From Rhodopseudomonas sp. (lineage in GTDB: Bacteria; Pseudomonadota; Alphaproteobacteria; Rhizobiales; Xanthobacteraceae): 64,000 nt of DNA. Shown in pieces: positions 56,816 to 61,653 of this stretch. Position numbers and translations under genes: made by a program. The number at the start of each line of letters is the position of its first letter. Positions within the stretch are counted from its first letter, which is position 1. The notes under the pieces are model-generated. The model had not been told where the DNA came from. It saw only the letters and a list, made by a program, of their open reading frames with translations, and made no database searches. The stretch lies in assembly GCF_013377015.1 (NCBI RefSeq), contig NZ_JACABA010000002.1, positions 1,021,691-1,085,690 on the forward strand, read 5' to 3'.

Positions 56816-59014
56816 TTACCAGCGCGCCTTGACGCCGGCATAGACCGCGCGACCGCTGCCCGGTTCGAACAGCGCCGATCCCGCATTGGCGCGATCGATG
56901 ATGCTGGCGGAGGCGATATAGGCCTTGTTGGTGAGGTTGCGCCCCTCGATGTAGATCGAGTACGGCCCGCCATTGTCGACGCCCGCCTTGAGGCCGAGCA
57001 GCGCATACGGCTCGGTCGTCAGCGTATTCGCGCTGTCGACATAGTAGGCTTGCGGCACCCATTCGAGATTGGGACCGATGTAGAAGCCGTTCGAATTCTT
57101 GTAGAGCAGTTCGGCCCGCAGATAGTGCCGCGGGGCGCCGGGCAGCTGATTGTTGCCGAAGCGGGCATCGTTGTCGAAGCGGAAGTCGTTCAGCGTGTAG
57201 GCGAGATTGAGCCAGAGCTTGTCGGGCTGCGGGCCGGCGTCGAACAGGCCCTTGAAGAACGCAATACCCAGCCCCGCCTCGATGCCCTGGTGCACGGTGC
57301 GGTCGGCATTGGTGACGTTGCAATTGCCGAACGCGCTGTACAGGCAGAGCAATTCGTCCTTGATCTCAGCGCGATAGCCGGTCAGTTCCCATGTCAGATC
57401 CGGCCGCTTGCCACGGGTGCCGAGCTCATAGGTGGTGGCGCGCTGCGGCCGGATGCTGGTGAAGGGGATGAACGGGATTCCCGGCCCCGACGAGCTTTCG
57501 CCGAAGCTCGGCACCTCGGCGCTGCGCGAGATATTGCCGAACGCTTGCCAGGTCGGATCGATATTCCAGAGCAAGCCGGCCTTCGGGCTCCACAGATCGA
57601 ACGACGTCGAACCGGACTGATCGCCGTCAACGAGGAAACGGTCGGCACGATTCCGCGTGGCGTGCAAGAACTGCGTGCCGGCAACGGATGCAACTGTCGG
57701 CAGGAAGTAGAACGAATCCTCCAGATACAGCGAGGTGTTCTTCGAATTGTCGATCGACGATGACAGCAACGCGCCCTTCTGGCCGGCGACGTTGGCGTAT
57801 TGCTTGTTGTCGATCTGGCCGTTGACGACGTTGACGCCGGCGATCAGCACGTTGCGAAAGCCGCCGATATTGCGATCGTCGGTGACCTTGGCGAAGCCGC
57901 CATAGTCCTGGTAGCGATAGTCGAGCCACTGGAAGATCGGATGCATCAGATGGCGGTCGAGGCCAAAGGCGCCGACATCCACCGTGGTGTTCTCGAACCG
58001 GATCGTGGTCTTGTTGGCGAGCCGCACGGTGTCGATGTTGCGCTGCTGATCGAGCGCGATGTTGCCGGCGGCTGCGGTTTCCGGAGAATTCAGCGCCGAG
58101 GCCTTGGTGACGCTGCCGGGAATGCGCTGCCGCACCTCGTTGGCGTTGAGATAGAACCGCGTCTCTATGTCGGGCGAGATCTGGTAGCCGACATTGCCGC
58201 TGACGCGGGTGGCGTGGCCGTCGCTGTGATCGCGAAAGCCGTCGGTGGCCTGCGTCGAGGCGGTGAGGAAACCGTCCCACGGCCCGTTGGCGCCGCCGGC
58301 ATTGGCCTGCAGCCGCCGGAAGCCGAACGCGCCGCCGTCGATGCTGACGCCGTTGACGAACGGATCGCGGCCGGTCGGCGTCACGAAATTGATCGCGCCG
58401 CCGAGCGAATTGGCGCCGAATTGCAGCGCGTTGCCGCCCTTGTAGACGGCGACATATTTATACGCGGTCGGATCGATCTCCTGGAAATCGCCATAGCCGT
58501 CGGCGGTGTTGATCGGGATGCCGTCCATATAGAGCTGCACGCCGCGCAGATGGAAATTGCGCGACAGGCTGGAGCCGCGAATCGACAGCCGCGTGTCGTC
58601 GCCCCATTTCGGCTGCGCGAACACGCCCGGCACGTAGTCGAGAATGTCCTTGATGGTGTTGGCGACAGTGGAGTTTTTGTAGGCCTCGGCCGGCACGATG
58701 GCGACGCCGCCGGGGGTCTGCTGGATGTCGCGCAGCGCCTGCTGCACGGTGAGCACGGTCAGCGACGGTCCTCTAGCCTGATCGCTGGCCTGCGGCGCCA
58801 CCGGCGCCGGATTGCGAACCCGCGATGCCCGGGTGGCGCGCGCGGCGCTGCGCTGCGGCTGGCGCGCGGCGGCCGCGCGTTGCTGCTGCGGAGCGTCGAC
58901 GGTCACGGCCGGCAGCGACGGCTGCGGACCGGTTTGGGCGAAGGCGGAGACGGACACGAGAACGGCGGCAGATGCCAGCATGACGCTGCGCATCCGCATG
59001 AACGCGGAAGACAT
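56816..59014 (-). CDS. TonB-dependent outer membrane receptor, probable copper uptake
   Basis: 732 residues. Signal peptide (VMLASAAVLVSVSAFA), Pro/Ala/Arg-rich N-terminus, plug domain (about residues 95-225; NTIKDILDYVPGVFAQPKWG, RLSIRGSSLSRNFHLRGVQL) and a 22-strand-type barrel ending in aromatic GRAVYAGVKARW. No His-rich metal motif marks the ligand. Copper is inferred from the neighbours: a copper uptake-associated gene on one side, and DUF2946 then nrsF/sigF on the other. The substrate is not proven. Confidence 0.87.
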   Translation of the reverse strand: MSSAFMRMRSVMLASAAVLVSVSAFAQTGPQPSLPAVTVDAPQQQRAAAARQPQRSAARATRASRVRNPAPVAPQASDQARGPSLTVLTVQQALRDIQQTPGGVAIVPAEAYKNSTVANTIKDILDYVPGVFAQPKWGDDTRLSIRGSSLSRNFHLRGVQLYMDGIPINTADGYGDFQEIDPTAYKYVAVYKGGNALQFGANSLGGAINFVTPTGRDPFVNGVSIDGGAFGFRRLQANAGGANGPWDGFLTASTQATDGFRDHSDGHATRVSGNVGYQISPDIETRFYLNANEVRQRIPGSVTKASALNSPETAAAGNIALDQQRNIDTVRLANKTTIRFENTTVDVGAFGLDRHLMHPIFQWLDYRYQDYGGFAKVTDDRNIGGFRNVLIAGVNVVNGQIDNKQYANVAGQKGALLSSSIDNSKNTSLYLEDSFYFLPTVASVAGTQFLHATRNRADRFLVDGDQSGSTSFDLWSPKAGLLWNIDPTWQAFGNISRSAEVPSFGESSSGPGIPFIPFTSIRPQRATTYELGTRGKRPDLTWELTGYRAEIKDELLCLYSAFGNCNVTNADRTVHQGIEAGLGIAFFKGLFDAGPQPDKLWLNLAYTLNDFRFDNDARFGNNQLPGAPRHYLRAELLYKNSNGFYIGPNLEWVPQAYYVDSANTLTTEPYALLGLKAGVDNGGPYSIYIEGRNLTNKAYIASASIIDRANAGSALFEPGSGRAVYAGVKARW

Positions 59015-59069
59015 AGGAGAACCCCAACTACTGATGTGACGGTGAAGCGAGCGCGAAAAGCGCGGGTCG

Positions 59070-59462
59070 TCAGATCAGTCGCGGTGGACCGCGGGGCTGG
59101 TGGTCATGGGTCGGATCGGGTGCGACGCGCGGCGTCTCGAACGTCGGTTGCGGCGCCACCGCAATGGCGACGCGGCCGAGCAGGACCGGCTGCGCCGGCG
59201 GCAACGCACCGGCGACGTGATTGCCGACGCAGATCGGGCAGCGGACCGTGGCCGACTTGGCGGGCTTGCCGGCATCATCCAACGCGGCGGTCGCGTCGCC
59301 GCCATTGAGGCAGAATTCATGCGCGGCGGCGAAAGCTGGCGGCGATAGCGACGCCAGCAGCGCGCTGGACAGGATGACGTTGAGCACAAGCGCATAGGCG
59401 GCGGCGAAGGCAGCCGCCGTTCCGATCCGTCTCTTGCGCGAAAAAAGCCCCAAATCCGCCAT
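59070..59462 (-). CDS. DUF2946 protein
   Basis: 130 residues. N-terminal signal or membrane helix (AAFAAAYALVLNVILSSALLASL), then HEFCLNGG and the conserved RCPICVGNH block with a C-x2-C pair, typical of DUF2946. The end is Pro/His-rich (VAPDPTHDHQPRGPP). DUF2946 genes usually stand next to TonB receptors and copper proteins, as here, and may bind copper. The ATG at 59462 is only 3 bases after a TTAA-N7-TTAA box. Confidence 0.82.
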   Translation of the reverse strand: MADLGLFSRKRRIGTAAAFAAAYALVLNVILSSALLASLSPPAFAAAHEFCLNGGDATAALDDAGKPAKSATVRCPICVGNHVAGALPPAQPVLLGRVAIAVAPQPTFETPRVAPDPTHDHQPRGPPRLI

Positions 59463-59465
59463 CCC

Positions 59466-59480
59466 TTAACTTTTGGTTAA
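59466..59480. promoter_or_regulatory. CtrA-like box at the DUF2946 start
   Basis: TTAACTTTTGGTTAA, a perfect TTAA-N7-TTAA arrangement, between 3 and 18 bases before the DUF2946 start codon. Too close to the start to place a normal promoter; it could block transcription, or be chance. Confidence 0.5.
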
Positions 59481-59553
59481 CATGGCCGGGAGGCGATTCA
59501 AAGTCATTTGCAGCAGGCCGCCAGATCGCGGCCCGTCAGCGCGCGCCTTGCAA

Positions 59554-60198
59554 TCAATACCGCAGCAATTTCGCGCCCGCCAATGCGCCGATCGCGGCGA
59601 CCAGCGCGGCCGACAGCGTGTACCAGGCGGCGACGAACAGCGGCGAATCGTCGTTGCAATGCGCGGCATAGAGCGTCGCCGCCAGTCCCGCCGATACCAG
59701 ACCGGCGAGCGCGCCGGCCAGCGCCGGCCGCGCCGGAGCGCCGCGGCGCAGCGCCAACAGCGCCGCCGCCAGCAACGGCAGCGACAGCAGCGGAATCGTA
59801 CTCACGCACAGCATCGCATTGTTGCCGACCAGCCGCCGCATCATCGGTTGCCGCTGCGGCACCATCATCTCGGCGCCGATCGCAAGCGCCAGAACCGCCA
59901 CCGGAATCAGCAGCAGCAGGATCCAGCCCTGCGCCGAAGCCTCGGGCCGCGACAGATGCAGGCTGACCGCGACCGCCGACATTGCCAGCGCCAGCGTCAC
60001 CACGAATTTGAGATCGAAGAACGGATTATGCATCGCGGTCATGATGTCGGGGCGCAGGCCGATGGTCGACAGCAGCATCGCAGCCGAAACCGGGATCGCG
60101 ACCAGCAGCGACGCCGCCAGCACCGGCGCGACCGGCATGGCACGGTTGCCGGCGTCGGCCGCCAGCGATTGGATCAGCCTGTCAGTGTCCATGCTCAT
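59554..60198 (-). CDS. nrsF: NrsF-family (DUF1109) membrane anti-sigma factor
   Basis: 214 residues with six membrane helices. DUF1109/NrsF family, the negative regulator of SigF-type ECF sigma factors. Two cysteines, C131 (NAMLCVSTIP) and C181 (YAAHCNDDSP), occur; as I recall, the Caulobacter homologue senses heavy metals through two cysteines at equivalent positions. The start overlaps the sigF stop by ATGA at 60198-60195. It holds SigF inactive in the membrane until the signal releases it. The gap to DUF2946 is 91 bases, so a longer transcript is possible. Confidence 0.87.
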   Translation of the reverse strand: MSMDTDRLIQSLAADAGNRAMPVAPVLAASLLVAIPVSAAMLLSTIGLRPDIMTAMHNPFFDLKFVVTLALAMSAVAVSLHLSRPEASAQGWILLLLIPVAVLALAIGAEMMVPQRQPMMRRLVGNNAMLCVSTIPLLSLPLLAAALLALRRGAPARPALAGALAGLVSAGLAATLYAAHCNDDSPLFVAAWYTLSAALVAAIGALAGAKLLRY

Positions 60199-60740
60199 GT
60201 CGACCTCAATCTGGCTGCAAGCGCCGACAGCCCGCGGTGCAGGGCGACCCGCACGGCGCCTTCGCTCATCGACAATTTGTCCGCGGTCGCCTTGATCGAT
60301 GCGCTCTCCACCGCGATCGATTGCAGTACGTCGCGTTGCCGCGGCGGCAGCGCCTCGAGATGCTTGGCGACCTCACCCGGCGGCAACGTCTCCGCCACCG
60401 GCTCGCTCGGGATCGTCTCGGCGAAATCGTCGATATTGACGAACACCCGGCGGCCGCGACGGCGTAGCGCGTCGATCAGCTTGTTGCGCGCGATCGCGAA
60501 CAGCCACGGCGCGAACGGCGCGGTCGGGTCCCAAGTCTGTCGTTTCAAGTGCACGGCCAACAGAATATCTTGCACGATGTCCTCGGATTGATCGACCGGT
60601 TGCCCGGCTCGCGCCAGCCCGCGGCGCGCCGCGGCCCGCAACACCGGCGCGACAGCCTTGAGCAGGCGGTGATAAGCAACCGTGTCCCCTGCATTCGCCG
60701 ACCGCATCAGGTCGGTCCACTCGTCGTCACGTCCGCGCAC
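60195..60740 (-). CDS. sigF: SigF-type ECF sigma factor
   Basis: 181 residues. ECF sigma factor of the group paired with NrsF: region 2 QPVDQSEDIVQDILLAVHLK then TWDPTAPFAPWLFAIARNKL, and region 4 LPPRQRDVLQSIAVESASIK then DKLSMSEGAVRVALHRGLSA. GTG start at 60740 (RGRDDEW) with AGGAG 6-10 bases upstream. The promoter-like GTAACA-N15-CGAA lies 20-44 bases upstream, suggesting self-regulation. The gene order sigF-nrsF then copper genes is the basis for a copper/heavy metal response role. Confidence 0.88.
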   Translation of the reverse strand: MRGRDDEWTDLMRSANAGDTVAYHRLLKAVAPVLRAAARRGLARAGQPVDQSEDIVQDILLAVHLKRQTWDPTAPFAPWLFAIARNKLIDALRRRGRRVFVNIDDFAETIPSEPVAETLPPGEVAKHLEALPPRQRDVLQSIAVESASIKATADKLSMSEGAVRVALHRGLSALAARLRST

Positions 60741-60759
60741 ACGCGCTCCTACAAGCCAG

Positions 60760-60784
60760 TTCGGCCCGATTGTCAGATTGTTAC
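60760..60784 (-). promoter_or_regulatory. Probable SigF-dependent promoter of sigF
   Basis: On the minus strand GTAACA (60784-60779), 15 bases, then CGAA (60763-60760). The Caulobacter SigF consensus, as I recall, is GTAACC-N16-CGAA; taking GTAAC, the spacing is 16. A start point near 60753 would leave a very short leader that still contains the AGGAG ribosome site (60750-60746). Confidence 0.65.
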
Positions 60785-61029
60785 CGCTATCGGCACGATC
60801 ACGAAACTGTGATCTGCCAAAAAAGGATCGGTTTCAGCACGCCCGAGCCACCGGCGACCGGACCCTCCCATAGCATCGTTCGGGCGGCAGGAGCCACCTC
60901 CGCCGCGGCGTCGGTCTGCAGTTGCCCCGGTTTTGCCGTGGATCAGCGAAGAATCCCCTTGTTTTGGCCCCGCTGGTGACACGCCGCGCGTGTGTTTGGG
61001 CGCAGGGGCTGGCAACTGGGGAGATTGCC

Positions 61030-61653
61030 ATGAAGTTCAAAGCCAGCGGGCGCTCGGCATTGATCATCGCAGCAGGGTTGTGGATTTGCTTCTGGGGACC
61101 GTTGCAGATCACCGAGAGCGCGGCCGCGTCGCCGGAAGTTTCCGGCGCAGCGGCGAAGATCAAGCACGCCGCCGCGCCGGTGGCGGCCAAGAAGGTCGCC
61201 AAACACAGGCACCGGCATCTAAAGAAGGATGCCTCGGCCAGATCGCGCAAATCCGCCGAAGCAGCAGCCAAAACGGAGTCCAGCGACGCTCCAGCCACCG
61301 CGACCCGCGACGAGCAACTGCCACCTGCGGTCGCCAATGCCAATGCCCAACTGCCTGCGGCCAATGTCGCCGCCGGCGAGCCCGCGTCGGCGAAGGTCGT
61401 CGGCCAAGGCGATGCGCAAACCGCGCGACCGGTTGGGTCGGCCGCTAACGCCGAGATCGTCGCCTCCGACCAATTGAACGAACTCGATCTCGCGGTCGCC
61501 GACGAGAAGCCCAAGCTGGTTGCCCCGCCGGCCGAGGTGAAGCCCGCCAATGACGACGACGCCTGGAGCAAATCCTCGCTGATCGGCAAGATCTTCATCG
61601 CGTTCGGCGGATTGCTGACGCTGGCCTCCGCGGCTCGGATGTTCATGGCCTAG
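61030..61653 (+). CDS. Hypothetical protein with terminal membrane helices
   Basis: 207 residues. N-terminal helix ([18 protein letters not shown]), a long disordered Ala/Lys/Pro-rich middle with a His/Lys patch ([18 protein letters not shown]), and a C-terminal helix ([22 protein letters not shown]). Probably spans the membrane at both ends with the middle in the periplasm. The ATG at 61030 (MKFKASGRS) is preceded by GGGGAGATTGCC. Divergent from sigF, 289 bases away. No known function. Confidence 0.72.

Follow-up and report, generated by a model that had tools for sequence, protein, structure and literature searches.

The promoter of an ECF16-type sigF-nrsF operon in Rhodopseudomonas: probable autoregulation and a predicted methionine sulfoxide repair regulon

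The closest studied counterpart of the SigF/NrsF pair that we describe here is EcfF-OsrA, an ECF16 pair of Bradyrhizobium japonicum (PMC3420878). The start of ecfF transcription was mapped in that species by primer extension to a C 6 bp past the -10 box, with a transcript seen upon H2O2 treatment and absent from untreated cells, and ecfF expression rises 18.8-fold in cells lacking the anti-sigma factor OsrA. The EcfF consensus is GTAAC(g,a)-N14-15-(c,t)CG(t,a), and the targets given in Table 3 of the same study include Msr genes and the bll1027-bll1026 gene pair. Two cysteines of OsrA, C129 and C179, are needed for its normal function, and C179 is needed for the release of EcfF under H2O2 (PMC3420878). 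A start for ecfF was also scored, with a low peak, in dRNA-seq of B. japonicum (PMC4842269).

Three further systems have been studied in other Alphaproteobacteria. Caulobacter crescentus SigF-NrsF belongs to the same family and carries GTAAC...CGAA in front of sigF, and its SigF target CC2748 is YedY/MsrPQ-like, as is the yedZ1 operon discussed below; the regulon further contains DUF692, DUF2282 and DoxX genes and responds to chromium, cadmium and copper (PMC3511200, PMC8224329), with chromium and cadmium reportedly acting independently of oxidative stress (PMC8224329). The C. crescentus sigF promoter becomes more active when sigF is overexpressed, and is slightly less active, i.e. still largely active, without SigF (PMC3511200). 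In Brucella melitensis, the ECF16 pair BcrS-AbcS likewise controls MsrQP-type repair genes and is linked to hypochlorous acid resistance, the bcrS promoter stays active without BcrS, and six transmembrane helices are stated for the NrsF-type anti-sigma family (PMC8315932). Fusions used to study RpoE7, the ECF16 factor of S. meliloti, were not induced by H2O2, cadmium or chromate (PMC6180224).

Here, we analyze a site in front of sigF in a 64,000-nucleotide stretch of Rhodopseudomonas DNA, hereafter the window. From its sequence and by analogy with the systems above, we propose that this site is very probably the autoregulatory promoter of an ECF16-type sigF-nrsF operon whose regulon includes msrB, msrA, a thioredoxin-CcdA operon and a YedZ1/YedY1-like operon. 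The parallel with EcfF-OsrA extends to gene order, in which the gene for an NrsF-family anti-sigma factor comes after that for the sigma factor, to two conserved cysteines in the anti-sigma factor, to the promoter consensus, and to targets that comprise peptide methionine sulfoxide reductases and a pair made up of a DsbD-like protein and a thioredoxin. The systems differ in that the YedZ1/YedY1-like operon also carries the motif in the Rhodopseudomonas genome; neither 'molybd-' nor 'cytochrome b' nor 'superoxide dismutase' occurs in the main text of the B. japonicum study (PMC3420878).

A sequence-only reading of this DNA had placed GTAACA-N15-CGAA on the minus strand before the sigF GTG codon, and direct reading confirmed both the coordinates and the letters: GTAACA is followed by 15 bases, CGAA, nine bases, AGGAG, five bases and GTG. 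Written as GTAACA-N14-CCGA, the site fits the EcfF consensus. Its likeness to the Caulobacter site GTAACC-N16-CGAA (PMC3511200) holds for GTAAC and CGAA but not for the sixth base, which is A rather than C, nor for the spacer, which is one base shorter. If transcription starts as it does at ecfF, the sigF mRNA would begin at a C that leaves a 15-nt leader. The sigF product possesses ECF regions 2 and 4 (Pfam Sigma70_r2, 1.1e-11; Sigma70_r4_2, 2.8e-10) and scores above the cut-off of NCBIfam PRK12512 (1.4e-95). The ATG of nrsF overlaps the sigF stop codon (ATGA), and nrsF is the single PF06532 match in the 4.83 Mb genome. Its product is an NrsF homolog, but at 118.6 bits it does not reach the cut-off of 300 for the NCBIfam equivalog NF042994 'anti-sigma-F factor NrsF' and receives no equivalog call from that model.

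Beyond nrsF lie genes for a DUF2946-like protein and a TonB-dependent receptor. Both are present at the same 6 of 109 compared loci, although short loci may miss the receptor, and two of these six are named Rhodopseudomonas (L073, L077). For these downstream genes, the 300-base stretches 59401-59700 and 59001-59300 contain no SigF-type site.

Table. Features of the sigF-nrsF locus, in window positions, and of the predicted SigF regulon elsewhere in the genome, by locus handle or contig position.
Feature	Position or locus	Strand	Basis
-35 element GTAACA, sigF promoter	60784-60779	minus	sequence
-10 element CGAA, sigF promoter	60763-60760	minus	sequence
Predicted transcription start (C)	60755	minus	analogy with B. 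japonicum ecfF
Ribosome-binding site AGGAG, 5 nt before GTG	60750-60746	minus	sequence; G-rich block at about the same place in orthologs
sigF, ECF sigma factor, 181 aa, GTG start at 60740	60195..60740	minus	Pfam, NCBIfam
nrsF, anti-sigma factor, 214 aa	59554..60198	minus	Pfam NrsF PF06532, 1.4e-57
DUF2946-like protein	59070-59462	minus	just under Pfam cut-off
TonB-dependent receptor	56816-59014	minus	
msrB (SelR domain)	L001, L180		motif upstream; Pfam
Thioredoxin (trx), then CcdA/DsbD-like protein	L002, L181		motif upstream; Pfam
Two overlapping SigF-type sites before trx	L181 + L002 (G000:C1:989594-989641)	minus	
msrA (PMSR domain)	L003, L182		motif upstream; Pfam
yedZ1: cytochrome b561, then molybdopterin oxidoreductase, Cu/Zn superoxide dismutase	L022, L183		motif upstream; Pfam
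Cu/Zn superoxide dismutase gene	L183 1395-2039	same as YedZ1/YedY1-like pair	
Candidate site GTAAC-N17-CGAA before second CcdA-like gene	L193 (G000:C31:167852-167877)	minus	

That the site is a SigF-type promoter through which sigF-nrsF is positively autoregulated, as the sequence-only reading had suggested, is strongly supported by its conservation among orthologs and by the experiments in B. japonicum and C. crescentus. The same conserved promoter could instead be read mainly by another sigma factor, with SigF in a minor role and a loop that is not truly autoregulatory. Such a reading would fit the activity that the C. crescentus sigF promoter (slightly lowered) and the Brucella bcrS promoter show without their cognate factors (PMC3511200, PMC8315932), as well as the -10 box, which is CGAA at sigF, unlike the CGTA of msrB and yedZ1, in 19 of 21 genomes. 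We nonetheless consider it unlikely: the ecfF transcript appears only with H2O2 and increases in the absence of OsrA (PMC3420878), overexpressing SigF makes the C. crescentus promoter more active (PMC3511200), and a simple consensus scan of positions 60700-61060 found no sigma-70-type promoter. Autoregulation by SigF need not be exclusive, because the C. crescentus sigF promoter is largely active without SigF.

Conservation was scored in the best 80 of 214 sigF loci, mostly from Bradyrhizobium, Afipia, Tardiphaga and Rhodopseudomonas, one of which (L137) is cut and has no upstream DNA and was left out. GTAAC-N16-CGWA lies within 120 nt upstream of sigF in 73 of the remaining 79 orthologs; no match occurs on the reverse strand (0/79) or in coding DNA of the same length (0/79), and 200 mononucleotide shuffles gave a mean of 0.065 matches per 79 loci and at most 2. 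Five of the six other orthologs have GTAAT-N16-CGW in place of GTAAC, and the distance of 16 bases from GTAA(C/T) to CGW is constant wherever the motif is present. Among the 79 loci, the motif is missing from L122 alone, and no other locus of the 80 lacks an nrsF match; in the other 79, nrsF directly follows sigF on the same strand. The sigF start codon is GTG in 76 of 79 orthologs and TTG in three. All of the 30 closest nrsF loci have GTAA(C/T)-N16/17-CGWA roughly 586-605 nt upstream of the nrsF match, with GTAAC in 26 and GTAAT in 4, and with CGAA in 27 and CGTA in 3.

A block conserved to this degree might, instead of being a promoter, be bound by a regulatory protein, and some spacer columns are indeed conserved in this ortholog set, which is rich in Bradyrhizobium. 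We regard this as very improbable, since the two boxes and their spacing stay constant and match a mapped promoter (PMC3420878), and across genera the first half of the spacer is conserved to almost the same degree at msrB (0.41) as at sigF (0.43). The same comparison led us to reject an extra spacer element, AAATTGAA, which visual inspection had suggested for many promoters of Bradyrhizobium and some of Tardiphaga.

Mere chance resemblance, by which a genome of this size would hold many such sites, fits genome counts for N16 and N17 near the mean of all spacings and fewer near-matches in the window than expected, but is almost certainly wrong and is refuted by the orthologs, 73/79 with the motif in the same place and none in either control. 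In the 4.83 Mb genome, GTAAC-N16-CGWA occurs 9 times and GTAAC-N17-CGWA 16 times, and GTAAC and CGWA are found at 191 sites over all 15 spacings from 10 to 24, or about 12.7 per spacing, so the motif is not enriched genome-wide. In the 64-kb window, GTAAC-N16-CGAA with one mismatch permitted was observed 2 times against 6.2 expected. Since these counts are at chance level, we dropped motif counting as evidence; that the sigF site is real therefore follows from its conservation in orthologs and not from any genome count. A reversed-pattern control outnumbered the motif and was disregarded, as reversal alters both base order and background frequency. The wider pattern GTAACR-N14/15-YCGW has 39 genome sites, 30 of which were taken as loci; among the 28 of these besides sigF and yedZ1, 23 fall within an open frame of at least 200 aa on one strand, but the sigF site does so too, and frame overlap of the other sites thus says little.

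Among the 25 GTAAC-N16/17-CGWA sites of the genome, one belongs to sigF and five to four other units, which together make up a predicted regulon for methionine sulfoxide repair, several of whose products are probably periplasmic. The sequence-only reading had offered the sigF site as a seed for finding such a regulon. The motif does recur before msrB, msrA, trx and yedZ1, but its CGAA form proved a poor seed: the 16 sites with CGAA include sigF, the second trx site and a candidate, L193, and miss msrB, msrA and yedZ1, while msrB, trx, msrA and yedZ1 account for four of the nine CGTA sites. The candidate site begins some 90 nt upstream of the start codon (ATG) of a second CcdA-like gene and may mark a further SigF target. 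The remaining 18 sites, judged from their downstream frames only, are probably chance hits.

Two of the units have features of their own. The trx-CcdA operon is preceded by two overlapping SigF-type sites that run into each other as CGTAAC, in which part of the first -10 box (CGTA) also belongs to the second -35 box (GTAAC), and the overlapping double site is also present in a congener (G005, L258). At yedZ1, the gene downstream of the YedZ1/YedY1-like pair encodes a Cu/Zn superoxide dismutase and may be co-transcribed with the pair.

Across genomes, the motif in front of the regulon genes is associated with the presence of nrsF. We hand-picked 34 genomes from 149, initially 23 with and 11 without an NrsF match; a Pfam search of the 11 found NrsF in one, G031, which was then counted as nrsF-positive, and none in the other 10. 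Searches for the four proteins covered all 34 genomes; for msrB, msrA and yedZ1 the best 30 loci of each were scored, and trx was scored in 12 genomes with matches at E 3.2e-28 or better, as weaker matches (from G023, 4.6e-21) resembled other thioredoxins. Scored as GTAAC-N16/17-CGW within -220 to +20 of the start, the motif precedes msrB in 24/24 nrsF-positive against 1/6 nrsF-negative genomes, msrA in 17/23 against 0/7, trx in 8/9 against 0/3, and yedZ1 in 22/23 against 0/7, with 2 matches in 306 control windows (reverse strand, further upstream and coding, three for each of 102 loci). Because the genomes are related and the nrsF-negative ones more distant, Fisher values overstate the independence of these comparisons, and the groups are small for trx and for nrsF-negative genomes. 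The sole nrsF-negative match is the msrB motif of G019 (L210), a genome in which the Pfam search detected no nrsF, and which has possibly lost its SigF/NrsF system recently. In G031, the nrsF and yedZ1 matches share a strand of contig C15 (L317, L310), with yedZ1 starting about 440 nt past nrsF, and the stretch searched there contains no SigF site of its own for yedZ1.

The search patterns took A or T equally at the third base of the -10 box, and this base separates sigF from most of its predicted targets. Of 79 sigF promoters (the window and 78 orthologs), 76 have CGAA as their -10 box and three have CGTA. For sigF, msrB and yedZ1, respectively, the third base is A/T/T in the 19 genomes mentioned above and T/T/T in the other two, the 21 together spanning 8 genera. 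At the site nearest the gene in the 23 genomes initially scored as nrsF-positive, the base is T in 23/23 cases for msrB, 22/22 for yedZ1 and 13/16 for msrA; trx is mixed, with 4 A and 4 T. We tentatively suggest, while thinking it somewhat doubtful, that this split between CGAA at sigF and CGTA at msrB, yedZ1 and mostly msrA is kept by selection and is functional. In Bacillus subtilis, SigX and SigW provide a precedent for sigma factors that are distinguished at the -10 box.

The -10 box of ECF factors was defined early on as CGT (PMC8103513), and it is therefore the sigF promoter, rather than its targets, that departs from the rule. For ECF groups, it is the autoregulated members that serve to define target promoters (PMC8103513), a practice that would introduce a bias of this kind. 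The split is not general to ECF16, because the Brucella target promoter of bcrX carries CGAA in its -10 box, GCGAAA (PMC8315932). Our search of text passages from open-access papers found no mention of a base difference between autoregulatory and target promoters in ECF16. If functional, the split may give the feedback loop a different strength or threshold, or it may allow a second sigma factor access to the sigF promoter alone. The latter would account for the activity that such promoters are reported to keep without their own sigma factor in Caulobacter and Brucella. The puzzle of sigF promoters that are active without SigF could thus be tested by a single base change. It would also follow that consensus promoters taken from autoregulated ECF genes can misdescribe a regulon, and the split warns that a motif scan may overlook the targets of a sigma factor when it starts from the promoter of the factor itself.

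We propose a model for the Rhodopseudomonas system in which NrsF would keep SigF inactive in unstressed cells and would free it on sensing a signal, most probably an oxidation in which Cys131 and Cys181 take part. Together with RNA polymerase, SigF would then read GTAAC-N16/17-CG(A/T)A promoters, activating msrB, msrA, thioredoxin-CcdA and the YedZ1/YedY1-like operon for the repair of oxidised methionine, and amplifying its own expression through the site at 60784-60760. We infer the transcription start, SigF dependence, signal and release by NrsF from the studied relatives. Cys131 and Cys181 are invariant in an alignment of the 30 closest nrsF orthologs, the Rhodopseudomonas one included, and would correspond to C129 and C179 of OsrA; methionines at positions 111, 112, 119 and 120 are common in the same alignment, not invariant. 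The regulon for methionine sulfoxide repair resembles that of EcfF, which makes oxidants a better first guess for the signal than metals. Copper, chromate and cadmium, suggested by the Caulobacter responses, are possible signals, and the signal may differ from oxidants, because S. meliloti RpoE7 was unresponsive to H2O2, cadmium and chromate.

The control that we propose, a self-amplifying stress switch, appears to be real and of a largely known kind; the base difference between sigF and most of its targets is what we did not expect. A resemblance noted in the sequence has become a tested promoter, and the regulon predicted for this group of bacteria, which is short and coherent, moves the focus from metals to oxidants. 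The motif is missing before msrA in 6 of 23 and before trx in 1 of 9 nrsF-positive genomes. Upstream of msrA (L227-L248), a CTATAT-like sequence can be seen by eye a few bases past the SigF -10 box, and it is also present in most genomes without a SigF site there, which suggests a second, housekeeping promoter for this gene.
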